The position numbers and the translations under genes are program-made. 64,000 nt of DNA from Clostridia bacterium (lineage in GTDB: Bacteria; Bacillota; Clostridia; Oscillospirales; CAG-272): assembly GCA_017447775.1 (NCBI GenBank), contig JAFSMU010000027.1, forward strand, positions 62,001 through 126,000, given 5' to 3'. Positions 1 through 35,371 of the stretch are shown here, piece after piece. Each line of letters starts with the position of its first letter. Position 1 is the first letter of the stretch. Under the pieces are notes generated by a model. It was not told the origin of the DNA. It did not search any database and saw only the letters and a list, made by a program, of their open reading frames with translations.

Positions 1-880
1 TAGGCAACACAGACGACAAAGTAAGTGATACATCCTTTGTCTTAGTCTGGCTCGCTGGCGCTCCGGTTCCGCCATTGGCATTGTAACTTATCGTATATGT
101 TGTTGGTTCAACAACGTTCTGCGTCCATACTGCATAAAGGTTCATGTTGGAGTTTCCGATATATGTCCCGCCGGGACTATATGCAACACTCGACGAACCG
201 GGACTTGTTGCCCATCCCTTGAACGTGTATCCGCTCTTTGTTGGTGTCGTGGACGAGAGAGTAAGATCAACACCGTATGTTTTTGTTTGACTTGACGGTG
301 CGCCGCTCCCGCCGCTTGCGTTATACGAAACTGTGTAAGTTTGACGGTAGTAATACACGGTCGTCGACGTATTTGTTGTCCCAAAAGTTCCCGATACTGT
401 CGCCTGTGTCGGACCGTATCCTGTTATCGTCGGACTTGTGAACGAGTACGACGTGCCGGGCTTTCCTGTTTTTGAAACGGAAGGCGATGCTGTATGATAG
501 TTTTCACCGTAAATATAGTACACAGTATGAGTGGAGTCTTTGACATATATTACGGTATATGTCGCTGTTCCGTTTCTGATATAATGTGAAGCCGGAAAAT
601 ATTTATCCATCATCTCATAACTGACATATGAATCACTGCTGTTTTTAAGCGAGTATCCTGATATCGTAGGTGACGTTCGTCCGTTTCCCCATTGTGCCTG
701 TTCACTCGCATTCACAGTAAACGAGTATGCGGGTGAAAGAGTATTTCCGCTTTCATCTTTGTAGTAAATCGTGCAGGACATCGGATAACTTGCGACAGCC
801 GCGGACACGCCTATTGTAAATACCGCGATGAGCGTAGATACAAGAAGTATCAGCGCAAATATTTTAGTCGTTTTTCTCAA
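1..880 (-). CDS. Secreted MucBP/InlB B-repeat adhesin, partial (3' end outside window)
   Basis: The frame is open for 293 residues and runs off the left edge. It starts at TTG (880), because AAGGAG lies at 891-896 and the nearby ATG at 890 closes after eight codons. Residues 1-28 form a signal peptide ending near GVSAAVA. Residues 34-115 and 118-180 look like MucBP-type beta domains (TIYYKDESGN, TVYYIYGEN). Residues 181-252 are one InlB B-type (Listeria-Bacteroides) repeat, with YNASGGSGAP, GYTFKGW and LYAVW, and a second begins at 261. The stop of the upstream gene overlaps the start as TTGA, so translation is coupled. As the last visible gene of a Tad-like pilus operon it may be a surface or pilus-associated adhesin; that role is inferred. 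Any C-terminal anchor lies outside the window. Confidence 0.8.
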   Translation of the reverse strand, partial: MRKTTKIFALILLVSTLIAVFTIGVSAAVASYPMSCTIYYKDESGNTLSPAYSFTVNASEQAQWGNGRTSPTISGYSLKNSSDSYVSYEMMDKYFPASHYIRNGTATYTVIYVKDSTHTVYYIYGENYHTASPSVSKTGKPGTSYSFTSPTITGYGPTQATVSGTFGTTNTSTTVYYYRQTYTVSYNASGGSGAPSSQTKTYGVDLTLSSTTPTKSGYTFKGWATSPGSSSVAYSPGGTYIGNSNMNLYAVWTQNVVEPTTYTISYNANGGTGAPASQTKTKDVSLTLSSVLP

Positions 881-1233
881 TTTGTGTCATCTCCTTTCAC
901 TCCCGGCACTACATAAATCTCGCCCGATATGTGAGGCTCGTCGATATGTCCGTTGTTACTTGTCCCACCGACGTCGATATGGACACCGCCGTTTTCATCG
1001 ACCGATATTCGAGGATCGTCATATACGACGGAACTTGCCGTTTCAGTCGGTACGGGTTCGATTGGCTCGATCATCGGGATACCATTTTCGGTCGCTGTCG
1101 CCGTTGTCTCCGGTTCGGATGCGGTCTGCTCGATATCGGTTTTGGGTTTAAGCGCAGTGTATGCAATTATTCCGAGTATAACTGCGACTGTAACAAGGCA
1201 GACGCAGATAATTGCTTTATGCTTTATTCTCAT
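877..1233 (-). CDS. Small single-pass membrane protein of the pilus operon, unknown function
   Basis: I do not recognise a family for this 118-residue protein. The start ATG follows AAAGGAGAAAAA. One membrane helix (about residues 8-28) with a short basic N-terminus is followed by a Thr/Glu/Pro-rich linker (about 30-65) and a hydrophilic tail, so the bulk should lie outside the cell. Its stop overlaps the TTG start of the repeat-rich adhesin gene by four bases, and it follows the larger pseudopilin gene by 11 bases. Its position suggests a helper for display or assembly of the adhesin, but the sequence shows no catalytic motif. Confidence 0.65.
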   Translation of the reverse strand: MRIKHKAIICVCLVTVAVILGIIAYTALKPKTDIEQTASEPETTATATENGIPMIEPIEPVPTETASSVVYDDPRISVDENGGVHIDVGGTSNNGHIDEPHISGEIYVVPGVKGDDTN

Positions 1234-1244
1234 TTTTTCTCCTT

Positions 1245-1724
1245 TCAGTAGGTTTCTGTATATAGGCTGACAATCTCAATCGGTATTGAGATGTCAGCTA
1301 TCTTTCTATTAAACATCTCAAAAGGAATGACGATCTCGTAAGTCACAAAAATGCCAAACATGTCCTGATACAGATAACTTACATGAGGTTGTTTCATCGT
1401 GTATTTGAACTTCTCGTTGCCGGCTTCAATGTATGGCAATGTCTGAACTGGCGGAAAGCCGAGAACGGTCAAAGCACCTTCGCAAATCTCTTTCGTGTCG
1501 AGTTTTGCTCCGTACACGTCACCTTGCTTTAGTGCATTGTAGTTCTTTACTGCAACGCCCGTTATGTAACTGTCGAGTTTGAGTTGCGTTTCTTCCTTTT
1601 GAGTCCTTGCGATATGGTAAATATGGGCGTATTCAAGCGCGATGAATATCAGCGCAACGGCAGTAAGTATTATCACACACGTCAATATGTAACTCGCGCC
1701 GCGCTTATCTTTGAGTTTTCTCAT
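1245..1724 (-). CDS. TadE/TadF-like pseudopilin
   Basis: This 159-residue protein has a short basic leader ending in DKRGASY, then one hydrophobic helix (about residues 13-32) and a beta-rich soluble domain. That is the layout of TadE/TadF minor pseudopilins, which are cut by a prepilin peptidase and sit at the pilus base or tip. The start ATG has GAGGCG upstream. The leader motif K/R-R-G-x-S/G-Y is shared with four other proteins of the same operon. Assignment rests on layout and position rather than strong sequence identity. Confidence 0.65.
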   Translation of the reverse strand: MRKLKDKRGASYILTCVIILTAVALIFIALEYAHIYHIARTQKEETQLKLDSYITGVAVKNYNALKQGDVYGAKLDTKEICEGALTVLGFPPVQTLPYIEAGNEKFKYTMKQPHVSYLYQDMFGIFVTYEIVIPFEMFNRKIADISIPIEIVSLYTETY

Positions 1725-1733
1725 CGTATCGCC

Positions 1734-2144
1734 TCATTTCCAGTAATGACGGGATAGCCCCGACTGTGTGACAGTCACTCGTATCGGCAACTTGAAATCG
1801 GAGAATCCGGGGAGCGTCATTTGGCACGTTACCGTGCATTGGATTATCTCCCCGTACTGCACCTTCTTTGCCGCGGTATTGAAGTATGTTGCTGAAAACT
1901 CTACAGTCGGTGTAAGTCCCGATTCTTCGCAAAGTTCATAATACCTCGCCGTCACCGCATCGCCGATCTGTCCTGTCGCCGTCGCCGTTGAGAGAAGCTC
2001 GTTGCAGATATACCGTATATCTTGCTTCAGCGTCACCATCGACCAAACCGACATTATGAGGATAAATAGAAAAACAAGAACGAGGACGGATATCACCATA
2101 TCGATGTATCCCTGTCCACGTTTGTCAAGTATTCTTTTCTTCAT
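1734..2144 (-). CDS. DUF4320-like pseudopilin
   Basis: The 136-residue product starts MKKRILDKRGQGYIDM, followed by a hydrophobic helix (about residues 17-38) and a soluble domain with two cysteines in QCTVTCQ. It resembles the DUF4320 family of small pilin-like proteins found in conjugative and pilus loci of Firmicutes; I give that name from memory of the family, not from a search. The start has GGAGGTG five bases upstream. It follows tadC by 13 bases and precedes the other pseudopilin by nine, so all are in one transcript. It is probably a minor pilin. Confidence 0.65.
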   Translation of the reverse strand: MKKRILDKRGQGYIDMVISVLVLVFLFILIMSVWSMVTLKQDIRYICNELLSTATATGQIGDAVTARYYELCEESGLTPTVEFSATYFNTAAKKVQYGEIIQCTVTCQMTLPGFSDFKLPIRVTVTQSGLSRHYWK

Positions 2145-2157
2145 ATCGTCACCTCCG

Positions 2158-3033
2158 TTACAGTATCAGCGAAAGCGACTTGAACAGAACTTGTCCGATC
2201 ACGACGATATATATCGCCATAAAGCAGATGAGAAGGATGAGAGATAACCGTCTGACTTTTCTCGGAACAGCCTTTGCCTCGTTTTTGAGAAGCTGCCTTT
2301 GATAATCTGAAAACTTCATATTGAGACTTGCCCAATATACGACGGTATCGTCGCCCCTGATTATTCCTATAAGACCTCGCGTTACATCACTCATCATTGA
2401 CGAGCCAACACGAGATTCGAGTCGTGTCAGCGCCGCCTCCATATTGCCTGAGCGCATATCGGCTGTCGTGATCTCGATCTCGCGTTTCAGCTCCGGTCCC
2501 GCGTTGTCTTTATAGCTTTCGAGCATATACAGAACGTCTCTATTGTGTTTTAAAGTCTTTTCAACGAATCCGACAAATCTCGGAAGTTCGTATTCTATCT
2601 TCTGCCGACGTTTTTTTAGCTTGCCGACAATACTGCGCGACCCTCTGAAATACACGACTACTGCAAGTATGACAAGCAAAAGCGCGCCGAATTTGAACAA
2701 GAAAAACATCGGCACAGAAAATACGCCGATGAAGAGCGCCTTTGTAATTGCATTTGCGATGTATTCTTCGGGTGTGATGTCCATATCGGCTGTCTTAAGA
2801 TCTGCCGCAAGCTGCGCTTTCCTATATTCACCGAGCCGTATCTTTCCCGCAATGAAATGCGAGAGATCCCTGAGCCATATTTCAAGCGGATTTGTCTTCG
2901 GATGACGGCGTTTGCCGAGTTCGTTTGCAGCTTTAGATGAGGCGTATGTCGGGACTTTCAAAGCATCGGCGAGAATAAAGAAAAGACCGACTCCGCAAAG
3001 AGTAGCGGTCATAATGATAAGTAATATATTCAT
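2158..3033 (-). CDS. tadC: TadC-like inner pilus platform protein (T2SS F family)
   Basis: This 291-residue integral membrane protein has helices near residues 3-22, 93-128 and at the C-terminus (265-289), and a cytoplasmic segment with the GspF-type core (LPRFVGFVEKTL, then MRSGNMEAALTRLESRV). TadC pairs with TadB to form the membrane platform on which the TadA ATPase works to extrude pilin. The start lies behind GAGGTGA. It is directly downstream of tadB with a 14-base gap, in the order tadA-tadB-tadC typical of Tad loci. The residue positions of the helices are approximate. Confidence 0.8.
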   Translation of the reverse strand: MNILLIIMTATLCGVGLFFILADALKVPTYASSKAANELGKRRHPKTNPLEIWLRDLSHFIAGKIRLGEYRKAQLAADLKTADMDITPEEYIANAITKALFIGVFSVPMFFLFKFGALLLVILAVVVYFRGSRSIVGKLKKRRQKIEYELPRFVGFVEKTLKHNRDVLYMLESYKDNAGPELKREIEITTADMRSGNMEAALTRLESRVGSSMMSDVTRGLIGIIRGDDTVVYWASLNMKFSDYQRQLLKNEAKAVPRKVRRLSLILLICFMAIYIVVIGQVLFKSLSLIL

Positions 3034-3047
3034 ATTCCCGTATCACC

Positions 3048-3974
3048 TCACTTCCTGTATTCGACAGGCTTTGTAAAGCGCGTCATAAAAATTCCCGTGA
3101 CGAATATCGCGACACTGCAAATAGCAAGCACAAGTTTTCCTAGAGTTGTGTACATAAGCGCCGCATACCAATCCTTGTTCAGAAAATACAGTATCGGTAT
3201 GTTCGCACAAACAAGAGCAACCATTATCAGATACTCGCGCTTTGCGTCGGCAAGAGTTGACTTTATCTCGTTGTTGACGATACGCACATCGGTCAGCTTT
3301 GCAACGGTCGGCATCAGCGTATCCTTGAGCGTTCTGTCGTCTTGACAGGCGAGGAGGATATCGCACCATTCCGTAAAAACCGTATCATTCACTTTTTCAC
3401 GGAGGTTCTTTATCGCTCGCTTCACGTCCGACGACACATACCCGCATTCGTCGACAAAACTTTGGAATATCTCCCGAACGGGCGGCTTTATATATTTTAG
3501 ATTCTCATTTACACTTTCGATTATGTTGTCGCTTCTGACATATGACGTCGTTATTATCGACAAGGCAGTTTCAAGTTCTCCCTTGACTTGCACGTTGTAT
3601 GACGCCACCGTCTTCCTGATAAATCCGAACGGTATCATGGCAAGAGCTATGGCAAGTACGGGTATAAGAAACGGATTGCCTATCGTGAATGCTATGACAC
3701 ATCCGACAGCCATAAGTACGAGCGACGCCGTCAGTGCAAGAGAGAATTTGCCGCCTTTACCCGTAGATTCGAGCGCATCGCGTATCCTGTTCAGTTCCGT
3801 TGTGAGTTTTCTCGATCTCTTCTTGCCTTGCGCGATAAGCGCCTTTTCTTTCAGTGTCTCTTTCTTCTCGAATATCCGCATCACGTCATTTGTCACGCTG
3901 TCGGGCGTCATTCCGAAAACAAATACAACACCGACAGCGATGGCGAGAAAGCATATTACGTATACCGCTGTCAT
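3048..3974 (-). CDS. tadB: TadB-like inner pilus platform protein (T2SS F family)
   Basis: This 308-residue membrane protein has an N-terminal helix (1-20), a paired hydrophobic region near 85-118 and two helices at the C-terminus (about 250-300). The cytoplasmic part between them resembles the GspF/TadB core (ELETALSIITTSYVRSDNI, FTEWCDILLACQDD). The ATG overlaps the tadA stop as ATGA, and its ribosome site GGAGGTGA lies inside the end of tadA, so the two genes are translationally coupled. Its partner is the TadC-like protein just downstream. Confidence 0.8.
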   Translation of the reverse strand: MTAVYVICFLAIAVGVVFVFGMTPDSVTNDVMRIFEKKETLKEKALIAQGKKRSRKLTTELNRIRDALESTGKGGKFSLALTASLVLMAVGCVIAFTIGNPFLIPVLAIALAMIPFGFIRKTVASYNVQVKGELETALSIITTSYVRSDNIIESVNENLKYIKPPVREIFQSFVDECGYVSSDVKRAIKNLREKVNDTVFTEWCDILLACQDDRTLKDTLMPTVAKLTDVRIVNNEIKSTLADAKREYLIMVALVCANIPILYFLNKDWYAALMYTTLGKLVLAICSVAIFVTGIFMTRFTKPVEYRK

Positions 3975-5284
3975 TTGTCATCACCTCCGCTTGTGAATTT
4001 GTTCAGCAAATCCTGTGGAACACCTCCGCGTATGAGTTTGTCGCAAAGGCTGTCCGACGGTGCGTTCACCTTTTCAAAGTATCCGTATATCCGGACTTTG
4101 CCGTCTACCTCCTCGTTTCCGATTATGTTGTAGCGGTAAAGAACGCGATATTCGAGTTCACCGTCATCGTGTACGACGCATTCGGTTATGTCCATTATCT
4201 TTCTGCTGTTGTCCTCCAGTCTGTGTGCAAACACTACTATCGGAAAGGCAATCGCTGCCTGGCGTATGGAGATGGATATATCTATCGGGAAACGCCTTTG
4301 ACAGAGGAATGCTATCCTCATGTGCGCGTATCTGCCGCCTGCGCCGTGAACGCTCGTTATGACGGTGTGATCGGTGCTTGATGCCTCGACGGCGTCGTGG
4401 GCTTCATTGTCTCGCATCTCTCCGATGCATATCACATCGGGAGTAAATCGCAGAGCAGTTCTCACAAGGCTGTCTTGCGTCACGTCGTATATCGGATTGT
4501 CCGATGGGCGGGACAGCGTCTGTACCACATTGTTTATGACTTTGCCGTCCTTATCTCGCTTTACAAGATCGAGTTCTCTCGCACCGCTTTCGATCGTATA
4601 TATTCTTTTTCCGTCGGGGACAGAGCCGAGAAGAGTATTCAGCAGCGTCGTTTTACCCGACGAAGTGCGTCCTGCGATCACGAATGACACACCGTAGCGG
4701 AGGCATGTTTCGAGAAACGACATCATTTCCTCCGTCAGTGCCCCTGTGTCAAGGAGATACTGCCTATCTACGCTTTGCGTGTGGAGCATTCGGATAGATA
4801 CCGATATGCCTCTGTCCTCGTCGACTATCGGGTCTTTGAGGGCGGTCACACGGATATTGCCGGGAAGATGCCCCTGCGCGATAGGTGTAGCGTTGTCGAT
4901 TATCATACCGCTATGATGAAGCAGACGTTTTACAATATCGGTCGCATGGCGCGGTGAAAAGAAGTGTTCGTCAGTTTTTTCGATACGTCCATCTCTGTAT
5001 GTGATGGCGATATCATCCCAACCGTTTATGTTGACTTCTTCTATCGCGGAATCGGATAGGTGCTTTGTCAAAATCGAATATTCAGCCATCTCGGAGTACA
5101 GTCTGTCGATAACGTCTTTATCCGGAATTCCCTCGACTGTGAAACCGTTATCCCTGATGAACTGTTCGATGTAGTATTTGAGCTGCGTTCGCTTATCGTC
5201 ATCGCCTATCGCGGCGGTGAAGTTTCGGGAGATGTATAACTGTACCTGACCTAATAGGTTATACAGCCCAATTGTTTTTGCCAT
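3971..5284 (-). CDS. tadA: TadA/CpaF-type pilus assembly ATPase
   Basis: This 437-residue protein is a hexameric secretion ATPase of the TadA/CpaF branch, which powers Tad pilus extrusion at the cytoplasmic face. The Walker A motif GRTSSGKTT is at residues 205-213, Walker B VICIGEMRD at 284-292, and the His box VITSVHGAG near 308-316. The N-terminal domain contains IEEVNINGWDDI (81-92), typical of the family. Length fits CpaF-like proteins. Only one ATPase is present, so extension and any retraction would share it, as in other Tad systems. The start is preceded by GGGGGTGA. Confidence 0.92.
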   Translation of the reverse strand: MAKTIGLYNLLGQVQLYISRNFTAAIGDDDKRTQLKYYIEQFIRDNGFTVEGIPDKDVIDRLYSEMAEYSILTKHLSDSAIEEVNINGWDDIAITYRDGRIEKTDEHFFSPRHATDIVKRLLHHSGMIIDNATPIAQGHLPGNIRVTALKDPIVDEDRGISVSIRMLHTQSVDRQYLLDTGALTEEMMSFLETCLRYGVSFVIAGRTSSGKTTLLNTLLGSVPDGKRIYTIESGARELDLVKRDKDGKVINNVVQTLSRPSDNPIYDVTQDSLVRTALRFTPDVICIGEMRDNEAHDAVEASSTDHTVITSVHGAGGRYAHMRIAFLCQRRFPIDISISIRQAAIAFPIVVFAHRLEDNSRKIMDITECVVHDDGELEYRVLYRYNIIGNEEVDGKVRIYGYFEKVNAPSDSLCDKLIRGGVPQDLLNKFTSGGDDK

Positions 5285-5299
5285 AAGGCATCACCCCCG

Positions 5300-6025
5300 T
5301 TATACTACCACCTTATCGGCTATCGCACCGATAACGGTGTTGTATTTTTTATCGCTGACGACATCAAACAGTTTGCCTTCATAGAATTGCTGCTTTACTT
5401 CGCGGGAGAACGGCAGTGTAAAACTCACCTCGCCAAGATGCGAGCGCACGTCAGATACGGGAGCACATATATCCGCGTCGGGTACATTTATCCCTTGGAT
5501 ATGTCTTTCTGCTCCGGCGACGAGCGGAAGCTGTGACAGATACCAACTTAGACAAGACAGATCGGGGGATGCAAGACGTATCACCTCGTCCGCCTCGCCG
5601 ACAGCGACGGTAGAGAGAACACTGTCGTCAAGGTTTGACATACAGTCGATTATTACGAAGTTGGCAAGCGTTTTCAAAACGTCGAAGAGTTCACGGGCTT
5701 TCACATCGTCAAATCGAGGGTATGTGAACTTGTTTTCGCCGCAGAGATATCCGAGAACGCCGAAGTTAGCCTTCTTCTTTATCAGAACAAGATTTTTTAT
5801 CGTTTCGTCGACCGTGATATCTGTTTTGGTCAGCACCTTGCCCACGGAGAACAGCGTGTCTCTCTTTGCCGACGGGAACAGCACGGGCATTGTTGGAGTC
5901 GTAATGTCGGTGAACAGCACGACGACATTCGTCTTATATCTGTTATATATCGCATTTGCGAGTTTGACCGAAAACGTCGTTTTGCCCGATCTCGGTGAAC
6001 CCCAAACGGCGATGGTCTTACTCAT
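5300..6025 (-). CDS. TadZ/CpaE-like P-loop ATPase
   Basis: The true start is taken as ATG at 6025, giving 241 residues that open MSKTIAVWGSPRSGKTT, a Walker A motif at residues 9-17. An upstream in-frame ATG would only extend it back into the neighbouring gene. The fold is ParA/MinD-like, with IIDCMSN as the probable Walker B region. TadZ and CpaE proteins localise the Tad machine in the cell. Here there is no receiver-like N-terminal domain, so it is a short form. It overlaps the CpaB-like gene by eight bases and precedes tadA by 15. Confidence 0.72.
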   Translation of the reverse strand: MSKTIAVWGSPRSGKTTFSVKLANAIYNRYKTNVVVLFTDITTPTMPVLFPSAKRDTLFSVGKVLTKTDITVDETIKNLVLIKKKANFGVLGYLCGENKFTYPRFDDVKARELFDVLKTLANFVIIDCMSNLDDSVLSTVAVGEADEVIRLASPDLSCLSWYLSQLPLVAGAERHIQGINVPDADICAPVSDVRSHLGEVSFTLPFSREVKQQFYEGKLFDVVSDKKYNTVIGAIADKVVV

Positions 6026-6779
6026 GAGCACCACCGCCGATCCTATTAAGATATTCGTCCTGTACTCTGACATATTCCGCGGCTCTCGTTTCATTGTCGT
6101 GACACACAAGCACGAAGTGGATGCTTGTCACTTTGTCATACTGTGCAAGCAGCTCGGCCTGTTCCGGTGTCGCAAAGAATGTTATCGTCGACGACTGCGC
6201 CGACTCGCTCGACTTATCTCGGTCGATACCGGTGTTGTCAGTTGTCGTTATGACATAAAGATATTTCAGTTCGGGCGGGATATATGACATCTTAATATCC
6301 GTGTTATATATAATAGCGGAAACGATATCGCCGCCGGATATCTTGCCGGACACTTCGCTTGCCAAGCCGTCGACGGTGACCGATATTGCCACTTTTGTGC
6401 CGTCAAGTTCGCGAAGGATATCTTCCGTTGTTTTCTTTCCATCGCTGAGTTTTGTGATGAAAACAAAATCCCCGACCGAAAGATCTGCCGAGGCGGTCTT
6501 ACCTACAACTGCCTTTGCGTCCGTTATCGCGCCTGTCGGGAGATTATATGAGCCAACCGTCGCTATCTCGATATCGTCGGCGGTTATGACCTGACCTTTG
6601 ACGATGTCCGTTTTTACTCTGACGACATTTGCCTTTCTGTCAGTGAAACGATTGACAAGCGGCGCCACGCCGAAGCAAATGGCAAGTGCCATCACGATGC
6701 AAATTATGCCGATTATCGTTCTGTTGCCGATTACCGATTTAAGTCTACTTTGTGTATTGGTTTTTGTTTTGTTTTTCAT
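6018..6779 (-). CDS. CpaB/RcpC-like SAF-domain pilus assembly protein
   Basis: The 253-residue product has one N-terminal membrane helix (about 22-42) and then a SAF domain (about 55-115) with the typical VVRVKTDIVKGQVITADDI opening. CpaB/RcpC proteins of this kind usually work with an outer-membrane secretin. No secretin is present here and the lineage looks monoderm, so the protein more likely acts at the cell wall or in pilus stability. A strong AGGAGG lies five bases before the ATG. It lies between the prepilin peptidase and the TadZ-like ATPase. Confidence 0.75.
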   Translation of the reverse strand: MKNKTKTNTQSRLKSVIGNRTIIGIICIVMALAICFGVAPLVNRFTDRKANVVRVKTDIVKGQVITADDIEIATVGSYNLPTGAITDAKAVVGKTASADLSVGDFVFITKLSDGKKTTEDILRELDGTKVAISVTVDGLASEVSGKISGGDIVSAIIYNTDIKMSYIPPELKYLYVITTTDNTGIDRDKSSESAQSSTITFFATPEQAELLAQYDKVTSIHFVLVCHDNETRAAEYVRVQDEYLNRIGGGAHE

Positions 6780-6791
6780 TTGACCTCCTGA

Positions 6792-7451
6792 TTAAATAAG
6801 GTAAAGAACAGCGGCACCTACCGACAGAAACGGAACAAGAGCAAAAGGCTCGCCGCGAAGTTCCCTATGACGTATATGCCTTATGAGCGTAACTATGACC
6901 GCAGACAACAGCCCTATGAACATAGCAACAAGTCCGCGCTCAAGTCCGAGCAGGAACGCGAGCACAGTCGATATTTTAATATCCGCGCCTCCGAGAGATT
7001 TCTTGCCGATAATGGCTATGACGATCTGAGGGAGGAACACTATATTTGCCGCAAGCGCCATCGACATTATCGAATGAGGCTTTATCAGCGCAAGAGCGAA
7101 TATGAGTATCCACACGCTGTCGTCGACTTCGTGACTCGTTATATCCGAACACGACGCATAAACGAGAACTGCGAAAAGGAAAAATCCTTTTATCGTATAA
7201 AGATCGACGCCGTGATAGAATACCGTGAGCAGTATTGCATATATAACTCCGAGCGTCATCACAAGCGGCTGCTTAAATCTGAATCCTTTGCTTTTCATAA
7301 CTCTTGTTAATGCGAACATCACAAGCGTTGCGGTCAGCAAAAAAATTGCCGCCTTGCCCGTTTCCTCAACTATTGTCAGCACGTCGGATTTTGACATCTG
7401 AACTACCCGAGTGTCGATAAGACCGCCAAGCGATTTTGTAATATCTATCAT
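6792..7451 (-). CDS. A24-family prepilin peptidase (TadV/CpaA-like)
   Basis: This is a polytopic membrane aspartyl protease of 219 residues that cuts leader peptides from pilins. The two catalytic aspartates are visible as D103 in the motif CSDITSHEVDD and D157 in GGADIK, the family's GxGD-type signature. No N-terminal methylase domain is present, as in TadV/CpaA rather than PilD. There is an extra N-terminal segment of about 35 residues before the first helix. It lies between the three pilin genes and the assembly genes, and its likely substrates are the five proteins of this operon with a KRG-x-G/S-Y leader. Confidence 0.85.
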   Translation of the reverse strand: MIDITKSLGGLIDTRVVQMSKSDVLTIVEETGKAAIFLLTATLVMFALTRVMKSKGFRFKQPLVMTLGVIYAILLTVFYHGVDLYTIKGFFLFAVLVYASCSDITSHEVDDSVWILIFALALIKPHSIMSMALAANIVFLPQIVIAIIGKKSLGGADIKISTVLAFLLGLERGLVAMFIGLLSAVIVTLIRHIRHRELRGEPFALVPFLSVGAAVLYLI

Positions 7452-7470
7452 TTTTACCTCTTAATACTTT

Positions 7471-7496
7471 CGGGAGGGCGGTGTTACGCCCTCCCG
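7471..7496 (-). promoter_or_regulatory. Perfect 10-bp stem-loop between pilins and assembly genes
   Basis: CGGGAGGGCG and CGCCCTCCCG form a perfect stem around a six-base loop, just after the last pilin gene. On the coding (minus) strand no run of T follows, so it is unlikely to be a strong terminator there. It is more likely an mRNA-stabilising or partial-readthrough element that keeps the pilin message more abundant than the downstream assembly genes. Confidence 0.6.
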
Positions 7497-7515
7497 ATAT
7501 TTTTATGACTCCGAC

Positions 7516-7767
7516 TTATGCGGTCGGACCGGAGTAGTTGAAGTATTCTGTGAGCTTTGTGGACACTTTCGTGAGAATGTTATCCTTGAACAGCGCATAA
7601 AGCGCAACGAGAATGACTCCGCCGATGACTATACCGATGATCCACTTGACCGCCGTGCTTATGTAGCCTTCACCTTTCTTGTTTGTTAAAGCCGTTTCAG
7701 CCGCTACTTTCGCGGAAATGAGAGCCTTGTTTGCCTTTGTTTTGATTTTTTCGATGAATTTGAACAT
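7516..7767 (-). CDS. Small major-pilin candidate (DUF6133/Flp-like), copy 1
   Basis: This 83-residue protein has a basic amphipathic N-terminus (MFKFIEKIKTKANKA), the processing motif TNKKGEGYI at about 28-36, and then a strongly hydrophobic helix (WIIGIVIGGVILVALYALF). It closely matches the next gene over its whole length, so the two arose by tandem duplication. It resembles the DUF6133 group of small membrane proteins in Firmicutes mobile elements. The likely role is a structural Tad pilin cut after the glycine and assembled by TadABC. The start follows AAAGGAAAG. Confidence 0.7.
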   Translation of the reverse strand: MFKFIEKIKTKANKALISAKVAAETALTNKKGEGYISTAVKWIIGIVIGGVILVALYALFKDNILTKVSTKLTEYFNYSGPTA

Positions 7768-7803
7768 ATATTTCTTTCCTTTCTGCTTTTTATATTGTTT
7801 TAA

Positions 7804-8049
7804 TTACGTTCCACTGTAATTGAAGAAGCCGTTGAGTTTCGTTTCAAGCGTTGTCAGAAGGTTTGTCTTGAACAGCGCATAAAGCGCAACGAGAATGACT
7901 CCGCCGATAACGATTCCGATGATCCACTTGACTGCGGTGTCGATATATCCTTCGCCTTTCTTGCTTGTGAGGGCTGTTTCAGCCACCACTTTTGCGGATA
8001 CTACCGCCTTATTTGCTTTTGCTTTGATTTTTTCAATGAATTTGAACAT
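7804..8049 (-). CDS. Small major-pilin candidate (DUF6133/Flp-like), copy 2
   Basis: The start is the ATG at 8049 rather than one eight codons upstream, because AAGGAG lies at a good distance before it and the product then aligns end to end with its neighbour (MFKFIEKIKAKANKA). The 81-residue protein carries SKKGEGYIDTAVKW and a hydrophobic helix, and ends FFNYSG. Residues differ mainly in the C-terminal quarter between copies (NLLTTLETKLNG against NILTKVSTKLTE), the part expected to be exposed on a filament. Confidence 0.7.
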   Translation of the reverse strand: MFKFIEKIKAKANKAVVSAKVVAETALTSKKGEGYIDTAVKWIIGIVIGGVILVALYALFKTNLLTTLETKLNGFFNYSGT

Positions 8050-8103
8050 ATTGAATTTCTCCTTTTCTTTCATAAATTTTTTTTGATGTTTTTGATCTCT
8101 CGA

Positions 8104-8340
8104 TCATACAAAATAGATGCCGCCTGAGCCACCAGTGCCTCCCGATCCCGACGAGCCGAACATATCTTGGATTCGTTCGGCAAGACCGGGTAAAAGCACA
8201 TTGTTGAACAGGGCATATAGTCCCGTTAGGAGCAGACCGCCGATCACCACCGATATGATGATAAGGACGGCGGTATCGATGTATCCTTCGCCTCGACGAC
8301 CGTGCAGGGCGGCATTTATCTTCCATAAGAGTTTTTTCAC
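8104..8340 (-). CDS. Small pilin-like protein with Gly/Ser-rich tail, copy 3
   Basis: GTG at 8340 is chosen because a perfect AGGAGG lies five bases upstream (8346-8351); an ATG five codons earlier has no ribosome site. The 78-residue product has the leader GRRGEGYIDTAV, a hydrophobic helix (about 25-45) and MFGSSGSGGTGGSGGIYFV at the C-terminus. It is more divergent than the other two copies. The flexible glycine tail is unusual for a small pilin, so it could be a cap or a linker subunit. It is the first pilin gene in the operon. Confidence 0.65.
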   Translation of the reverse strand: MKKLLWKINAALHGRRGEGYIDTAVLIIISVVIGGLLLTGLYALFNNVLLPGLAERIQDMFGSSGSGGTGGSGGIYFV

Positions 8341-8356
8341 GTTTGCCTCCTGCATT

Positions 8357-8803
8357 TTACATTTTTACTCCGAGATCTTCCTCGGGTATATCGTTTTGTT
8401 CTGCCGCCGCATTCTCGGCAGTCTGACCGTTCTGCTGACGCATTTCAAGTGCACGGTCATATTCGCCCGACACTGCGTCATTAAAACGGCTTCGGGCTTC
8501 TGCTGTTACGGGATGGAAGATGTCCTCATATTTCGTATTGCCGTATGCGTCCTTGTACGGCGACTGCGGCATACTTACCCATCTGCCTTTCTCGTTTTCG
8601 TAAAGTCTTACGTTGTGCACAGCAAACCCGCCGGGCAGATTTACGCTTGCCACGGCTTTGAGCTTTGAGTTCGGATCGTCAAATATCCGGTCGATCCTTG
8701 CTTTTATCTCGGCTTCCTCCGACTGCTTTCTATCCGGGGCGTTCTTCTTATCGGGTTCTTTTTCTTTTGCCATGCCGACGCCGCCTTTCTTTGATGCTGC
8801 CAA
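8357..8803 (-). CDS. SpoVG-family protein of the mobile element
   Basis: A strong GGGAGGTG lies six bases before TTG at 8803, so that start is preferred (148 residues); ATG codons at 8821 and 8773 are alternatives. After a charged, disordered N-terminus, residues from about 33 to 115 form a SpoVG domain (LKAVASVNLPGGFAVHNVRL, then GRWVSMPQ and DIFHPVTAEAR). SpoVG proteins bind RNA or DNA and tune expression; chromosomal ones are about 95 residues. Extended copies are common in conjugative elements of Firmicutes. As first gene of the pilus operon it may regulate it; that is inference. Confidence 0.8.
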   Translation of the reverse strand: MAASKKGGVGMAKEKEPDKKNAPDRKQSEEAEIKARIDRIFDDPNSKLKAVASVNLPGGFAVHNVRLYENEKGRWVSMPQSPYKDAYGNTKYEDIFHPVTAEARSRFNDAVSGEYDRALEMRQQNGQTAENAAAEQNDIPEEDLGVKM

Positions 8804-8838
8804 TTTTTCACCTCCCTTCATTTCGTGATATCTATATT

Positions 8839-8880: not shown

Positions 8881-9585
8881 TCAGAATCCAACAAACATAA
8901 AACCCGAATCTGACTGTACTTCTTCGTCCGATATATCCTCCGGCTCGGCAAACATTTTCGAGTATTTTTCGATTTGCTTGTCCGTAAGATCGCAGAATTC
9001 ACCGTCGCCGTTGTCGCCGATGACATATATCTGTCCCGCATATACGGAGCCGCCTATATGCCTGTTGCCTTTCATGCCGATGAGTTTTGCTTCCTCGTTC
9101 CCGAGGACTACGGCGTTATCTCTAAAAGGATATGTGATCTCGATAAATGACTCCGATCCATCCGGACTTACCGCGCGCTGAAGTTTTTCGAGTTCGTCCG
9201 GGAGTCTTGTTTCGACGGGCGGTCTGTTCGGCTCGATCATCAGAACACGAAACCCGTCCATTTCGGCGCACTTTGACGTATCAAAATCATCAAGTTTTTT
9301 GTATCCGATGCTGTCGCAAAAATATGTTCCTTCGGCCACATCCACGTCTCCTTCGCATACTTCGACTATATCGCTCACGGAAAGGCTGTGTCCCTGCATC
9401 GTGCCGTGAAATTCGCTGTTGAATTCTTTGAATATGTCTTCAAGGTCGCTGGTTTCGGTATATCCCGAATATACCTTTTTGTATATCTCCGGATCGACTC
9501 CATCTTTTCCGACCATATCGTATCCGAGGAACATCCGTCCTTTCGTGTCTTTATTGCTGTCGATCTGATATATGTTTATCCGCAT
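8881..9585 (-). CDS. YodL-DUF3846 two-domain protein
   Basis: The 234-residue protein has an N-terminal YodL-like domain (about 1-95: RMFLGYDMV, VYSGYT, HSLSVSDIVEV, YFCDSIGYKKL) and a C-terminal DUF3846-like domain (about 107-215: FRVLMIEPNRPP, LGNEEAKLIGMKGNR, FCDLTDKQIEKY). Both occur in accessory proteins of conjugative elements and neither has a proven reaction. The tail is acidic. The ATG overlaps the AbrB-type gene by ten bases. The domain names come from recognised motifs and have not been tested by a profile search. Confidence 0.7.
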   Translation of the reverse strand: MRINIYQIDSNKDTKGRMFLGYDMVGKDGVDPEIYKKVYSGYTETSDLEDIFKEFNSEFHGTMQGHSLSVSDIVEVCEGDVDVAEGTYFCDSIGYKKLDDFDTSKCAEMDGFRVLMIEPNRPPVETRLPDELEKLQRAVSPDGSESFIEITYPFRDNAVVLGNEEAKLIGMKGNRHIGGSVYAGQIYVIGDNGDGEFCDLTDKQIEKYSKMFAEPEDISDEEVQSDSGFMFVGF

Positions 9586-9875
9586 ACCTTCTCTCCTGTC
9601 TGCTTTACCGCAAGATGGACGAGAAGCGCTTTCTGCTCGGCGCTTGAAAGACTGTCGACAAACTCGAGGAGCGATATTTCACCGTCTTTTGATTCTGTAT
9701 CGCCGCCGACACATCGGCAGTTGTCGCATATCTTTTCTTTCTTAACAAAAACGCCGCCATCCCTTTGCTCGAAAGAGATGACGTCGTTATATGAAAAACC
9801 GAGCGTCTGCCTTATCTCAAACGGAATCGTTGTTCTCCCTTTTCTGCCGAGTATTCTGTATGTTTTCATGATCAT
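9576..9875 (-). CDS. AbrB/MazE-type DNA-binding protein
   Basis: The 99-residue protein opens with a swapped-hairpin AbrB domain (TYRILGRKGRTTIPFEIRQT, residues 5-24; about 5-50 in all), then a CDNCRC cysteine cluster (50-55) and a helical C-terminal tail. AbrB domains bind DNA as dimers. The two or three clustered cysteines could bind metal, which is not standard for AbrB. It overlaps the YodL-type gene and follows the adenine methylase gene by 11 bases, so it may regulate this accessory operon. Confidence 0.65.
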   Translation of the reverse strand: MIMKTYRILGRKGRTTIPFEIRQTLGFSYNDVISFEQRDGGVFVKKEKICDNCRCVGGDTESKDGEISLLEFVDSLSSAEQKALLVHLAVKQTGEKVCG

Positions 9876-9886
9876 TTTTCCTTTCG

Positions 9887-10867
9887 TTATTTCTTAATTT
9901 TGTTTTTTACAATGCTTTCGCGAAGAATCTTTTCGTAATCGATGTTTTCGTTGTCTTCGCCGATCACCAGTTGTATCGGCTTGTTTTTCTGCGTTTCAAG
10001 CAGATCGAAGTTCCCGATGAGCAGTTCGGGAAATTCAGCGCCGGCGTTATACCTCTGCGCCATATTGTGAATCCGGCTGCATTCAAGTATCTCAAAATCA
10101 CGGTAAAGTTTCCGGATATACTCGCAGTCGTTGTACGAGAGCAGAAATCGACCTTTAATGCTGCAAAGTGTATTTTTCAGTCGCTCATGATCGTCTTTTG
10201 AAAAACACGCCGCATACATTCCTTCCGTTTCGTAGTACGGCGGGTCGCAGTAGAAAACCGTATTCGGCCTGTCGTAATGGCGTATCAGTGTTTCGAAATC
10301 CTGATTTTCTATTATTACGTTTGTCATTCTGCCGTGCAGTTCCCAAATTGAATTGAAGAATCTTCTTAGGTCTATCGGTTGAGAAGCAAAACTTTTGAGC
10401 CCGGATGAATAACTGAAACGGATGACCTTGTAAAAGGCGACTGCGCGTTTTATATCATAATCGTTTGCCCTTTCTGTCAAAAGCCTTTTAATATCTTCAG
10501 TGCCGGGGGGAGAAAGAATGACAGATGTAAGATCTATCTCTTCATTAATCCATTCGTTTTTGAATTCGTTTTTTGAAAGAGCTTCTTTCAGAAATAGAAA
10601 ATCCGCTCTTGAATTGAGCGGAAACAGCCCGAGTTCTTTAATAAAGGCAATTGTTCTGTCTTTCATGCATCGGAACAGATTTACAAGGTCAGAGTCATAA
10701 TCGTTATATACTTCAAAAGAGCACGGCCTTCTTCCGAGTAGCACCGTTCCCGAGCCTCCGAATACGTCTACGAACCGTTCACAGTTTTCCGGAAGTATTG
10801 CGTTTATGTAGGGTAGGAGAGGAGTTTTGTTTCCCACCCAACTTACGGGGCTTTTTATGGATATCAC
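9887..10867 (-). CDS. D12-class adenine-N6 DNA methyltransferase
   Basis: This 326-residue enzyme methylates adenine in DNA using SAM. The SAM-binding motif FGGSGTVLL is at residues 36-44 and the catalytic DPPY at 208-211. The opening SWVGNKTPLLPYI is typical of Dam-like D12 methylases. No restriction enzyme gene is nearby, so it looks like an orphan methylase used by the element for protection or regulation. The GTG start sits inside the GAGGTG ribosome-site sequence. An ATA nine bases downstream is ideally placed after it, so the start is uncertain. Confidence 0.85.
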   Translation of the reverse strand: MISIKSPVSWVGNKTPLLPYINAILPENCERFVDVFGGSGTVLLGRRPCSFEVYNDYDSDLVNLFRCMKDRTIAFIKELGLFPLNSRADFLFLKEALSKNEFKNEWINEEIDLTSVILSPPGTEDIKRLLTERANDYDIKRAVAFYKVIRFSYSSGLKSFASQPIDLRRFFNSIWELHGRMTNVIIENQDFETLIRHYDRPNTVFYCDPPYYETEGMYAACFSKDDHERLKNTLCSIKGRFLLSYNDCEYIRKLYRDFEILECSRIHNMAQRYNAGAEFPELLIGNFDLLETQKNKPIQLVIGEDNENIDYEKILRESIVKNKIKK

Positions 10868-10873
10868 CTCTTT

Positions 10874-11170
10874 TTACATATCAAAGTTTTGATTGTATTC
10901 GTCTTCTTCATCGTCGAAGTAATCATCTTCGTTTTCTTCATATTCGCTTTCGCACTCATCATCGTCAACAGAAGTTATGTTCACATACTCGCCGATGATA
11001 CACAGCGCCTCGCTGTAACTGCCCGATGATGTTATACGTGAGCACATTTCTGTGGCTTTATCAGCCATACCGTTTTGTCGAAGTGTTCTCGACGCTATTC
11101 CCATAAGGTTAAAGATGTTTCCGTCCTGACCGATGAGCGGACAGTCGGGTCTTTTTTTAGGATCGATCAT
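10874..11170 (-). CDS. Small acidic accessory protein of mobile elements
   Basis: I cannot name a family for this 98-residue protein. It opens MIDPKKRPDCPLIGQDGNIF followed by a helical segment (NLMGIASRTLRQNGMADKAT) and a very acidic C-terminus (about 70-98). The DPKKRPxCPLIGxDGNIFNL opening recurs, as I recall, in small accessory proteins of Firmicutes conjugative elements. Its ATG overlaps the stop of the ferredoxin-fold gene as ATGA, with GGGAGG upstream, so expression is coupled. Confidence 0.6.
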   Translation of the reverse strand: MIDPKKRPDCPLIGQDGNIFNLMGIASRTLRQNGMADKATEMCSRITSSGSYSEALCIIGEYVNITSVDDDECESEYEENEDDYFDDEEDEYNQNFDM

Positions 11171-12231
11171 TCTATACCTCCCATTCCGTTATTCTGATCC
11201 GAAAAATCAAGACCGTTGCCGACGATCTCGATGTATTTGTCCAGTGTTATGTCATCCCCGCCGATGAAGTTCGGTGTGTTTTCCTCACCGAGTTCAACAT
11301 ACCCGTTCTCGCCGAGGTCTATCGGATCGCTCGTTATTACAGATCCGCTGAAATTCACGGAAACGATCTTTTCCACTGTCGCGTACGGATTGCTTCCGTC
11401 ATCCGAACTTCGAAGCTGATAGCAGTGCAGACCGTTCGGGATATCGGCGTCCGTTTTTCTTTCCTCAGTAAACAGCGCGGGTTTGCCGAAAAACTCGATC
11501 GGTTCATATTCTTCATCGTCTATGTATATATAGTCATCTCCTTTGGCGTTGAGATGCATTCCGTAATCGGTAGGGTCCAGACCTTTGACTTTCAATGCAA
11601 AGTCTATGCAATCGACTCTGCTTTCGGGAAAATACTCTTCGACACGTTCGCCGTTTCGGTATACATACTTTCCGCAGTTGAAACCGATATCTTCATCAGC
11701 CCACTCGTGTTCGATCTCGATATCGGGATACATTTCGGCGAGTTTTGCGATGACGGGATGCGGCGCCGACCATGCGGTGTCAAACCTGATCGTATCTTTT
11801 GCATTGTCCGATTCTTTGAAATCATACGCATTCCATTTCGTCCCCCAATTGCCGACACACCACTCATACCACGTCGGTGCGCCGTATTTGAGTTCGTTTT
11901 GAAATGCCTTCTTGCCGAGTTCCCAGTCGTTGTGATCGATATCTGTCCGCATATCAAGGAACGCTTTTTCACTTTCTTCGGGTATATTGAGCAGATCGGC
12001 ATCTTCTCTCGTTCCCGCCAAGGTATATACCTCAATGAAGTTCTTGTACGCCTCAAGACCTCTGTTGGTGTTGCTCCCGCTTGTGATATTGAGTTCCTCC
12101 GGCATAGGTATCAGTTTATTGAAATCGATCGACGGAAAAACAAAATTATCGTTTTTTATGTTTTCGGTCATCTCGCTGATTTTCAGTCTGTCTCCCCAAA
12201 ACTTGAGTATGTTTGTTACGTGGTTTGGCAT
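11167..12231 (-). CDS. Api92/DUF1281-like protein with polyvalent-type C-terminal domain
   Basis: The N-terminal part of this 354-residue protein (MPNHVTNILKFWGD, then FNKLIPMPEEL and WCVGNWGTKWNAYDF) matches the Api92-like ferredoxin-fold family (DUF1281). The C-terminal part from about residue 230 (YGMHLNAKGDDYIYIDDEEY, then LHCYQLRSSDDGSN and VELGEENTPNFIGG) resembles domains carried by large polyvalent proteins of phages and conjugative elements. Those are often counter-defence or early-entry factors, but no activity is shown here. It overlaps the cytosine methylase gene by 16 bases. Confidence 0.62.
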   Translation of the reverse strand: MPNHVTNILKFWGDRLKISEMTENIKNDNFVFPSIDFNKLIPMPEELNITSGSNTNRGLEAYKNFIEVYTLAGTREDADLLNIPEESEKAFLDMRTDIDHNDWELGKKAFQNELKYGAPTWYEWCVGNWGTKWNAYDFKESDNAKDTIRFDTAWSAPHPVIAKLAEMYPDIEIEHEWADEDIGFNCGKYVYRNGERVEEYFPESRVDCIDFALKVKGLDPTDYGMHLNAKGDDYIYIDDEEYEPIEFFGKPALFTEERKTDADIPNGLHCYQLRSSDDGSNPYATVEKIVSVNFSGSVITSDPIDLGENGYVELGEENTPNFIGGDDITLDKYIEIVGNGLDFSDQNNGMGGIE

Positions 12232-13517
12232 TTTTCGTTCTCCTTTTTGTTCATTTCTTCAAATACTTTTTTTATGATCTGTCCGACTGCTGTAATGACA
12301 TTCACGGTAACGGCGTTTCCCGCCATTTTATACAGTCTCGCGTCCGACATTCCGAGCACTTTGACCTTATCGAATTGCTCGTCAGTAAAACCCTGGAGCC
12401 GCCACGCTTCGCGAGGTGTGAGTTTTCTGACGTGACCGTTATGTATCACACCGTACCTGTCGCAAGCGGTAATGGTAAACATCGTCTCATCGGGTTCTTT
12501 TATTCGTCTGCCTTGCTGCCTGACATTTTCTTTTTCGGGACTGATGACCGCCATTGCACCGCTTTCGATAAACACGCCCGAATGCTCGCCTTTATGCTTG
12601 CTAATGCCGGAATCCTGTCTTGCCGTTATGCAGCGGGCAAGTTCGGTAAGACTGGGAGGCGGATTCATATCGATACAAAAAACGCCTTGCGTAGCACTCG
12701 GCGTTACGGTATGTGCGATGTCGTGTCCGACACGCCCGCGGCGGGAGTTCTGATCGGCGTATGCGAGGTCAATGCTGTCGCCAGGGTATGCCGTCTGATA
12801 TCCCGATACGGTTTTCGATTTTATCGGGAGTTCGATTTCATAAAGCCCCGTATTCCCGGCGAAACCTCCACCGCCACTTGTCAGCGTCTGGCTCAGTCCG
12901 TTTGCGGAATACACTCGACTTCCTTGTTTTCCTGGCAGACGTCTTTGCATAGTTTTCGGATTTGTTTCTCTGAAAGAAAGTACCTTTCCGGCACATCGCT
13001 CTCTAAGAAATCCGACAATGAACACTCTCTTTCGGGATTGGGCAACGCCGAAATCTGCGCTGTTAAGCACCTCCCACGCGACATCGTACCCCAATTCATC
13101 CAGCGAAGAGAGGATGGCAGCAAACGTCCTGCCTCTGTCATGCGACAGCAGTCCGGGAACGTTTTCAAGGAACAGAAATGTAGGTTTTTTAACCCGAGCG
13201 ATCCTGGCAATTTCAAAGAAAAGCGTTCCTCTGGCGTCTTCAAATCCCCGTCGCTGTCCGGCGATCGAAAAAGTCTGACAAGGAAATCCTCCGCAAACAA
13301 GGTCGATATCGGGAAGCTTGTCCGGATCGATCGTTCTTGCGTCTTCAAAACATAATTCTCCTTCCGTATTGTATAAAGTTTCGTATGCCCGTCTTGTATG
13401 CGGATCTATTTCGCAGTACCCGAGGGGCAAAAAAATATCGCCGACATTTCCGAGTCCCGAACGAAACCCGCCTATGCCGGCGAACATATCAAGATATTTA
13501 ATTTTCTTTTCATTCAA
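12216..13517 (-). CDS. dcm: C5-cytosine DNA methyltransferase
   Basis: This 433-residue enzyme makes 5-methylcytosine in DNA from SAM. Motif I DMFAGIGGF is at residues 10-18, motif IV with the catalytic C80 in GGFPCQTFS, motif VI FLENVPGL near 135, motif VIII QSRKRVF near 180, and motif X AGNAV near the end. The target-recognition region (about 215-370) is long and repeats the pattern A-x-x-I/V-T-A/P, as in several element-borne methylases. No cognate nuclease is in the window. It lies directly downstream of metK. Confidence 0.9.
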   Translation of the reverse strand: MNEKKIKYLDMFAGIGGFRSGLGNVGDIFLPLGYCEIDPHTRRAYETLYNTEGELCFEDARTIDPDKLPDIDLVCGGFPCQTFSIAGQRRGFEDARGTLFFEIARIARVKKPTFLFLENVPGLLSHDRGRTFAAILSSLDELGYDVAWEVLNSADFGVAQSRKRVFIVGFLRERCAGKVLSFRETNPKTMQRRLPGKQGSRVYSANGLSQTLTSGGGGFAGNTGLYEIELPIKSKTVSGYQTAYPGDSIDLAYADQNSRRGRVGHDIAHTVTPSATQGVFCIDMNPPPSLTELARCITARQDSGISKHKGEHSGVFIESGAMAVISPEKENVRQQGRRIKEPDETMFTITACDRYGVIHNGHVRKLTPREAWRLQGFTDEQFDKVKVLGMSDARLYKMAGNAVTVNVITAVGQIIKKVFEEMNKKENEKCQTT

Positions 13518-13529
13518 TAGTTATTCCAC

Positions 13530-15357: not shown

Positions 15358-15434
15358 TGGCGTCCCCGGGCGGATTCGAACCGCCGGCCTTTCGCTTAGG
15401 AGGCGAACGCTCTATCCTGCTGAGCTACGGAGAC
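15358..15434 (-). tRNA. tRNA-Arg (anticodon CCU)
   Basis: A full cloverleaf is seen. The acceptor GTCTCCG pairs with CGGGGAC, the D-arm is TAGCTCAGCAGGATAGAGC, the anticodon stem TTCGC/GCGAA holds the loop CTCCTAA with anticodon CCT, and the T-arm has GGCGG-TTCGAAT-CCGCC. The discriminator is G (15361) and CCA is encoded (15358-15360). It reads AGG codons. It follows the transporter gene terminator and sits at the junction between the mobile element and the chromosome. Confidence 0.95.
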
Positions 15435-19987: not shown

Positions 19988-20063
19988 TTTTTACGTGAGA
20001 TAAACGCGCCGCGAAAACGACTAAATACATGATAACGGAAATGATCCGAAAATGGAGGACAAA

Positions 20064-33636: not shown

Positions 33637-33647
33637 TATCAGATCAT

Positions 33648-33674
33648 AGCCGCCGCATTTGCGGCGGCTTTTTC
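33648..33674 (+). terminator. Terminator of the lipid kinase gene
   Basis: AGCCGCCGCA pairs with TGCGGCGGCT and is followed by five T. Confidence 0.88.
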
Positions 33675-33684
33675 GTTTGCGCTA

Positions 33685-33712
33685 TTGACAAAACGGGCAT
33701 AATATTTATAAT
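33685..33712 (+). promoter_or_regulatory. Sigma-A promoter of the isomerase-like gene
   Basis: Perfect TTGACA (33685-33690) and TATAAT (33707-33712) boxes are spaced by 16 bases, about 35 bases before the start. Confidence 0.85.
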
Positions 33713-33747
33713 TATCCGTGAAAGAAAAACACTTCGGAGGGAAAAAT

Positions 33748-34563: not shown

Positions 34564-34579
34564 AAAAATGCAAAAAAAC

Positions 34580-34606
34580 AAAAAGCCCCGCTTATGCGGG
34601 GTTTTT
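34580..34606 (+). terminator. Terminator of the isomerase-like gene
   Basis: AGCCCCGC pairs with GCGGGGTT/T around a TTAT loop, with A and T runs on either side. Confidence 0.85.
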
Positions 34607-34720
34607 CAGCGCTTATTTTTTTCGGACGCGATATGAATAAAATCACCGTTTTTGTGAAGAATAATCCCGTAAGCCAAAAATTACAGGTTTTATCAGAACA
34701 TCAACGGAGGATTTATATAT

Positions 34721-35272: not shown

Positions 35273-35273
35273 A

Positions 35274-35293
35274 AGAGCCGAAAGGCTCTTTTT
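35274..35293 (+). terminator. Terminator of spoVT
   Basis: AGAGCC pairs with GGCTCT around GAAA, followed by TTT. Confidence 0.75.
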
Positions 35294-35342
35294 GCGTCGG
35301 CGGCGTTTTTGTTTCTGTAAAAAATTATTAACATATTTTTCC

Positions 35343-35371
35343 TTGACACGCGGGCGGCGATATTGTATAAT
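35343..35371 (+). promoter_or_regulatory. Strong sigma-A promoter of the LRR lipoprotein gene
   Basis: TTGACA (35343-35348) and TATAAT (35366-35371), both perfect, are spaced by 17 bases. Confidence 0.9.

Follow-up and report, generated by a model that had tools for sequence, protein, structure and literature searches.

What does a Tad-type pilus cluster do in the genome of a clostridial bacterium, and with what does it travel? The question is raised by a 64,000-bp stretch of Clostridia DNA, here called the window, which covers bases 62001-126000 of the 139.5-kb contig JAFSMU010000027.1 from a genome of 1.79 Mb that is 94.9% complete. Negative window coordinates denote positions left of position 1 on the same contig. 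The Tad cluster at the left end of the window, together with a predicted secreted repeat adhesin, forms the pilus module of what is predicted to be an integrative and conjugative element (ICE), and we consider it likely that it acts as a mating pilus that captures and holds recipient cells.

The pilus genes had been named and placed on one strand by a first-pass annotation made from the letters of the window, and gene calling, Pfam searches and profile-profile comparison bore this out. From upstream to downstream the cluster consists of the following features.

8357..8821, minus strand: SpoVG-like protein (PF04026, 67.8 bits)
8104..8355, minus strand: pilin 3 (DUF6133), with the prepilin-type motif GEGYIDTAV preceding its transmembrane (TM) segment (PF19629, 81.1 bits; cut-off for this family 27 bits)
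7804..8073, minus strand: pilin 2 (DUF6133; PF19629, 63.1 bits)
7516..7767, minus strand: pilin 1 (DUF6133; PF19629, 62.7 bits)
6792..7451, minus strand: prepilin peptidase (Peptidase_A24; PF01478, 38.8 bits, cut-off 26.5)
6018..6779, minus strand: CpaB/RcpC-like protein with SAF domain (PF16976, 39.1 bits, cut-off 28.8)
5300..6073, minus strand: TadZ-like P-loop ATPase (by position; weak similarity to MinD, below cut-off)
3971..5284, minus strand: TadA/CpaF ATPase (PF00437, 90.4 bits)
3048..3974, minus strand: TadB platform protein, five TM segments (by profile-profile comparison)
2158..3033, minus strand: TadC platform protein (by profile-profile comparison)
1734..2144, minus strand: DUF4320 pseudopilin (PF14208, 100.8 bits)
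1245..1724, minus strand: second pseudopilin-like protein with a single N-terminal TM segment (by sequence and TM prediction)
877..1233, minus strand: small one-TM protein with a hydrophobic N-terminus, which has a counterpart in a second cluster of the same genome (by sequence)
1..880, minus strand: N-terminal 293 aa of the repeat adhesin, cut by the window edge; the full gene (1477 aa) runs on to contig position 58447 (window -3553)

Intergenic gaps inside the cluster range from -56 to +64 bp. Near relatives of the TadA protein (54-65% identity) were found at seven named loci in metagenome-assembled genomes (MAGs) titled Clostridia or Oscillospiraceae.

Several lines of evidence place the machine among Tad pili. 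With the TadA profile, solved CpaF was the top match in the PDB (E 1e-43, profile positions 25-393 of 437), and archaeal type II-like, FlaI, VirB11 and PilT chains ranked behind it. The TadB- and TadC-like proteins matched no Pfam family, T2SSF included, and no NCBIfam model at E 0.001. In profile-profile comparison with canonical sets drawn from ten loci of other genomes they reached 98.0% (TadB) and 98.3% (TadC), against 0.7% and 0.2% for the membrane control TrbL. Their TM layout resembles that of canonical TadB and TadC, and the pair is positioned after TadA, as in Tad/Flp pili. The prepilin peptidase and the CpaB/RcpC-like protein both scored above their Pfam cut-offs. All three DUF6133 pilins, 83-89 aa long, carry the sequence G-E-G-Y-I-(D/S) ahead of the TM segment, and none matches the Pfam Flp family; the TadZ-like protein reached MinD models only far below their cut-off. 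As the first-pass annotation had claimed, a secretin is lacking: PF00263 had zero matches across the whole genome at its 94.9% completeness. The secretin RcpA/CpaC is expected in diderm Tad systems only, and its absence fits a monoderm Tad system, without deciding whether the cluster belongs to the Tad class. In a tree of 47 TadA sequences, which carries the warning that long branches meet, 33 including that of the window formed one clade (Shimodaira-Hasegawa approximate likelihood ratio support 100). Outside it fell seven canonical sequences, four from loci without transfer genes and three others. Transfer genes were present in the fetched stretches for 23 members of the clade, and the stretches of the other ten lacked them or were unable to show them.

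The first-pass annotation had also proposed that the cluster is carried by a mobile element, and the sequence left of position 1, where relaxase, type IV secretion system (T4SS) and serine-recombinase genes were found, agrees with this. A DUF3852 gene (146 bits) follows the adhesin gene on the same strand after a gap of 7 bp. It is succeeded, again on the same strand, by genes for a HipA-like protein, TrbL_5 (363 bits), small proteins, a VirB4-like protein (P-loop_TraG, 47.1 bits, and AAA_10, 41.2 bits), an amidoligase, the relaxase, a Toprim protein and VirD4 (PF02534, 137.8 bits). The relaxase belongs to MobL and is named MobP3 by NCBIfam (364.7 bits, cut-off 150). This run of transfer genes extends from the adhesin down to window position -18692, and all 42 genes called from contig position 77233 down to 43064 point in the same direction. 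The labels PrgI-like, VirB2-like (for DUF3852) and VirB1-like are presumptive, being taken from position or recall. Beyond VirD4 the left flank continues with a radical SAM gene, ABC genes and genes for an S24 protein, Pol IV and a SIR2-like protein, and it also has three serine-recombinase genes, one of them without a resolvase domain. A 21-bp direct repeat occurs at contig positions 20200-20220 and 77358. Since this tRNA-Arg repeat stands at both ends, an element of about 57 kb is predicted, which would take in the methylases and the S-adenosylmethionine synthetase of the window. A clean empty integration site was not found in genomes G299-G301. The features that follow complete the predicted element on its right side.

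8881..9585, minus strand: YodL/DUF3846 protein, with homologues that precede the pilus genes in other elements
9576..14699, minus strand: leading block of the element, with genes for an AbrB/MazE-like protein, a D12-class adenine methylase, LPD28, a C5 cytosine methylase and S-adenosylmethionine synthetase
15358..15378, minus strand: right attachment repeat of 21 bp, identical to the 3' end of tRNA-Arg, with its left counterpart at contig 20200-20220
15358..15434, minus strand: tRNA-Arg (CCU), predicted integration site, whose 3' end is the repeat

The DNA methylases, which had been claimed to be mobile together with the pilus, belong to this leading block of the predicted element.

The link between pilus and transfer genes was followed in a survey of 299 genomes of the phylum and 14 control genomes. 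DUF4320 (PF14208) was found in 31 of the 299 genomes, at 41 loci, and in none of the 14 controls. TadA lay within 6 kb on the same strand at 35 of the 41 loci. VirD4 lay within 45 kb on the same contig at 18, on the same strand in 17 of these. As a control, TadA-size T2SSE sequences of the same 31 genomes, chosen by score (189-241 bits) and with TadB/TadC neighbours viewed at ten loci, had VirD4 within 45 kb in 0 of 34 cases. Viewed from the transfer side, TrbL_5 occurred in 12 of the 299 genomes at 13 loci, ten of which had the pilus within 10 kb; random placement would give 0.14 of 13, and the loci are not independent, G070, G089 and G176 being near-copies. Two of the others are a decayed remnant of both pilus and T4SS (G112) and what is probably a single locus split between two contigs, whose ends bear the pilus and the T4SS (G211).

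Comparison of the operon across elements gave the same order in nine of them (our own, G070, G089, G176, G086a, G206a, G206b, G147 and G255): SpoVG - pilin - peptidase - CpaB - TadZ - TadA - TadB - TadC - DUF4320 - pseudopilin - adhesin - DUF3852 - TrbL - small protein - VirB4 - amidoligase - MobL - Toprim - VirD4. SpoVG was not seen in G086a and G206b, VirB4 is fragmented in G255, and some elements contain inserts. The layout was derived from profiles built on first matches and holds as far as the fetched stretches extend. VirD4 and VirB4 were called with in-house profiles at E 0.001, which is looser than Pfam; the VirD4 call in G109 has no PF02534 match. Pilus-bearing stretches numbered 36, of which 31 covered 32 of the 41 DUF4320 loci and five came from MAG loci. 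At least one of VirB4, VirD4, TrbL and MobL (E 0.001) was present in 22 of them and none in 14, several of the latter being truncated where the contig or the 10-kb flank stops. Because the coupling to transfer genes is conserved, mating partners are favoured over mucus or surfaces as the target of the pilus.

The same module recurs on plasmids. When plasmid records were searched with TadA, six clostridial plasmids were the best of at least 5000 matches, most of which were distant ATPases, and T4SS genes lie near the module in all six examined. On pTPHSE1 of Terrisporobacter petrolearius HSE, pESS10701c and pCd5_2 the module is upstream of VirD4 and a T4SS of the pLS20_p028 type; MobP2 is annotated in the first two, and the pCd5_2 stretch ends before that point. 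In CP141730 the module precedes the series Toprim-DUF3852-TrbL-DUF87-MobP3-VirD4, and this plasmid has Pol IV and SIR2 genes in common with the element described here. The unannotated OY725878 contains VirD4 and VirB4 by in-house profiles. The weakest of the six is pESS17301a, where one gene annotated as PrgI and another for an ATP-binding protein lie at a distance of 11-14 kb. In PLSDB all six (NZ_CP154620, NZ_CP067350, NZ_CP037841, CP141730, OY725878 and NZ_CP067354) are typed as non-mobilizable by MOB-suite; T4SS genes are nonetheless present, and three have an annotated relaxase.

An indirect sign of movement comes from near-identical elements in hosts of different families. G070, G089 and G176 represent three different families; the first two share 29.3 kb at 99.8%, pilus included, and G176 shares 19.6 kb with G070 (98.9%) and G089 (98.7%), again with the pilus. 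Of 118 genomes drawn from the window's own family, 7 contained DUF4320, our own among them; the two genomes of the same genus in this draw lacked it, so the cluster does not sit at a fixed chromosomal place in its relatives. The genome studied here has a second pilus cluster with an adhesin on contig C32, where TadA is 67% identical and the cluster lies near two genes, one for ParB and one for a large protein of the MutS-I/N6-methylase kind; this 23-kb contig had no recognisable T4SS gene. Identities of TadA and VirB4 correlate across 11 elements (r 0.78). Co-inheritance is loose: our TadA is equally distant from elements with its own VirB4 type and from those with another type, which suggests that transfer systems exchange the pilus as a module. 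A wider proposal, which we find plausible and put forward tentatively, is that monoderms own a widespread class of conjugative pili, modular and Tad-type with an exchangeable adhesin, which various types of T4SS on ICEs and plasmids of Bacillota have taken into service.

The adhesin had been described as a MucBP/InlB-repeat protein. Its InlB-type repeats stand, with 11 stretches (PF09479), and MucBP does not, as Pfam made no significant call in this copy and found the domain only in the homologue P0008. The N-terminus is hydrophobic and signal-peptide-like, with no prepilin-type start. Among 21 adhesin open reading frames, our own counted, the C-terminus is matched in 20 and the N-terminus in three. 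These sequences are best read as a dedicated adhesin with a conserved C-terminus and a variable stalk. Inverted repeats in L008:1800-7000 were limited to two scattered examples, with no cluster of the shufflon kind.

From these parts a working scheme can be proposed. The DUF6133 pilins would be matured by the element's own prepilin peptidase, and TadA would power their polymerisation on TadB/TadC. No secretin would be required in a cell that, as here, probably lacks an outer membrane. The filament would pass through the cell wall and carry the adhesin to the partner; the adhesin itself would be exported via its signal peptide, attach through its conserved C-terminal domain to the pilus or to the surface of the cell, and present the variable stalk of InlB repeats to the partner. 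TadA could then retract the pilus, as happens in other Tad pili, and so draw the cells together, and the contact would be held while the T4SS passes MobP3-bound DNA to the recipient.

Several observations weigh against a mating pilus. Both the filament and its mating role are predicted from genes, and the placement of the adhesin on the pilus is presumptive; the anchor sought for it left of position 1 was not found, and its C-terminus, when inspected, had no LPXTG and no cell-wall anchor. At 23 of the 41 DUF4320 loci VirD4 is missing within 45 kb on the contig; in several of these cases the contig is too short to show it. A T4SS of the TrbL_5 type exists without the pilus, since locus G069 has none and carries an adenine methylase directly before DUF3852. 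G011, G058, G186 and G182, which form a separate TadA clade, had no transfer genes in the fetched stretches. This copy of the element may moreover be impaired and poor at transfer, because its VirB1-like protein (L007:9901-10392, contig 51901-52392) ends at 163 aa and lacks the M23 domain of relatives; the homologues in G147 and G211 measure 357-363 aa, and the one in G147 has a C-terminal M23 peptidase domain. Finally, part of the same linkage would also result if the pilus were cargo for adhesion to mucus or surfaces.

As cargo, the pilus would be carried by the ICE to benefit the host cell in colonisation or in adhesion to mucus or surfaces and would play no role in DNA transfer, an explanation that we consider unlikely but that deserves weight. 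An adhesion role is known for Tad pili (PMC5696575; here and below, cited sources are represented by their accessible text). The adhesin has InlB-type repeats, the model of an adhesin relative contains a CARDB-like domain, and five of the seven named TadA relatives come from animal-gut samples, judging by their titles. Cargo is, however, expected to be variable and to lie apart from transfer genes, whereas the module is found inside the transfer-gene run at the same place in the nine elements, with 10 of 13 TrbL_5 loci and near T4SS genes on the six plasmids. One carrier is a Dehalobacter, according to the name on P0121. Dehalobacter is an organohalide respirer and is not known as a mucosal coloniser.

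A second alternative, in which the Tad proteins build no long pilus and serve as a type II-like apparatus for secreting the adhesin or some other transfer protein, is very improbable. In its favour are the place of the adhesin gene at the end of the cluster and the shortness of the three pilins, but the signal-peptide-like start of the adhesin should suffice for export in a monoderm, and tandem pilins (three here, four in L013 and L014) suggest a polymer. Likewise we give little credit to a pilus that itself conducts DNA as part of the channel, in the manner of the PAPI-1 chimera of VirB4, VirD4 and an essential type IV pilus (PMC12857230) and in line with a VirB1-like protein without M23 domain, since TrbL (VirB6) and DUF3852 here and the M23 peptidase in relatives indicate that a regular channel is probably encoded. 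A mating pilus that works alongside this channel is the interpretation we prefer.

Some further features of these elements were noted. Genes for adenine methylase, cytosine methylase and S-adenosylmethionine synthetase are clustered at window positions 9887-14699, and the element may supply the methyl donor for its own methylases. Between VirB4 and the relaxase lie an Amidoligase_2 gene and a second gene, a putative GGCT (L007:8138-9760, contig 50138-51760); the same two genes occur in G070, G089, G176, G086a, G206b and G147, and they appear to be a conserved pair. Inside the element described here, a radical SAM gene together with two ABC-transporter genes (L006:10845-17164, contig 32845-39164) looks like a cargo cluster for peptide modification or export. 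Beyond the left repeat, a third copy of the tRNA-Arg end (19 bp) follows after 1.36 kb with one HNH gene in between (L068, contig 18843-20220), possibly marking a second small tandem insertion. Tandem pairs of different Tad clusters were seen in L054 (G206) and L049/L050 (G231), where the second TadA groups with the clade of ParB/SNF2-type elements.

If monoderms do own such a widespread class of conjugative pili, the rule that Gram-positive conjugation works without pili is overturned. If the module is a mating pilus, contact between donor and recipient in Clostridia, which matters for the spread of mobile DNA in the gut, would gain a concrete machine with named parts: the DUF6133 pilins, the DUF4320 pseudopilin and an adhesin with a conserved C-terminus. 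The same genes could also serve as markers by which conjugative plasmids now typed otherwise are recognised, as with the six clostridial plasmids typed non-mobilizable despite nearby T4SS genes.

According to a 2025 review, in its accessible part, Gram-positive systems encode no conjugative pili, with Patescibacteria as a possible exception. Our search of the literature, which left most subscription papers outside, found no description of a Tad pilus in a conjugative element of Bacillota (PMC4793230, PMC5696575, PMC12786226, in their accessible text); the last of these deals with a Tad locus and, in that text, not with conjugation. Canonical chromosomal Tad/Flp pili share with the cluster a CpaF-type TadA, TadB, TadC, CpaB, a prepilin peptidase and short pilins. 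The present system differs in its separate TadA clade, in TadB and TadC that lie below Pfam detection, in its DUF6133 pilins and in the DUF4320 pseudopilin. Adhesins of Gram-positive conjugative plasmids, TIE of the Bacillus subtilis plasmid pLS20 and PrgB of pCF10, are needed mostly for mating in liquid; these systems have no pilus, and their adhesins have thioester or lectin-like domains (PMC8092201). In three of the clostridial plasmids, a T4SS of the pLS20_p028 type comes with the Tad module.

By our comparison, the nearest precedent is the linear Flp-pili plasmid of Cutibacterium acnes, a Gram-positive replicon with a tad locus beside VirB4-, TcpC- and FtsK/TraB-like genes; a putative pilin was detected at the surface, and the authors regard the plasmid as possibly conjugative (PMC5696575). 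It is actinobacterial, linear and known from one species, and its role in colonisation is stressed; the accessible text describes neither a family of ICEs nor a coupling that is conserved from element to element (PMC5696575). The thin type IVb pili of the IncI plasmids R64 and TP114, with their adhesin PilV, also combine a type IV filament machine and an adhesin with a T4SS (PMC9045228; for R64, PMC12857230). Their hosts are Gram-negative and PilV, a minor pilin, owes its variation to a shufflon, whereas the element described here has a Tad-type ATPase and platform, no secretin in its genome, a repeat adhesin with a Sec-type start and no cluster of shufflon-like repeats. PAPI-1 of Pseudomonas aeruginosa is an integrating element whose type IVb pilus binds the recipient to start transfer (PMC5297154; PMC12857230); it differs in its Gram-negative host, in the use of lipopolysaccharide as receptor and in that only VirB4 and VirD4 are clearly recognisable. 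In R64, TP114 and PAPI-1, as here, pilus genes are coupled to T4SS genes on the same element, and by this analogy the Tad module is best read as a counterpart, for conjugation in monoderms, of their type IV pili.

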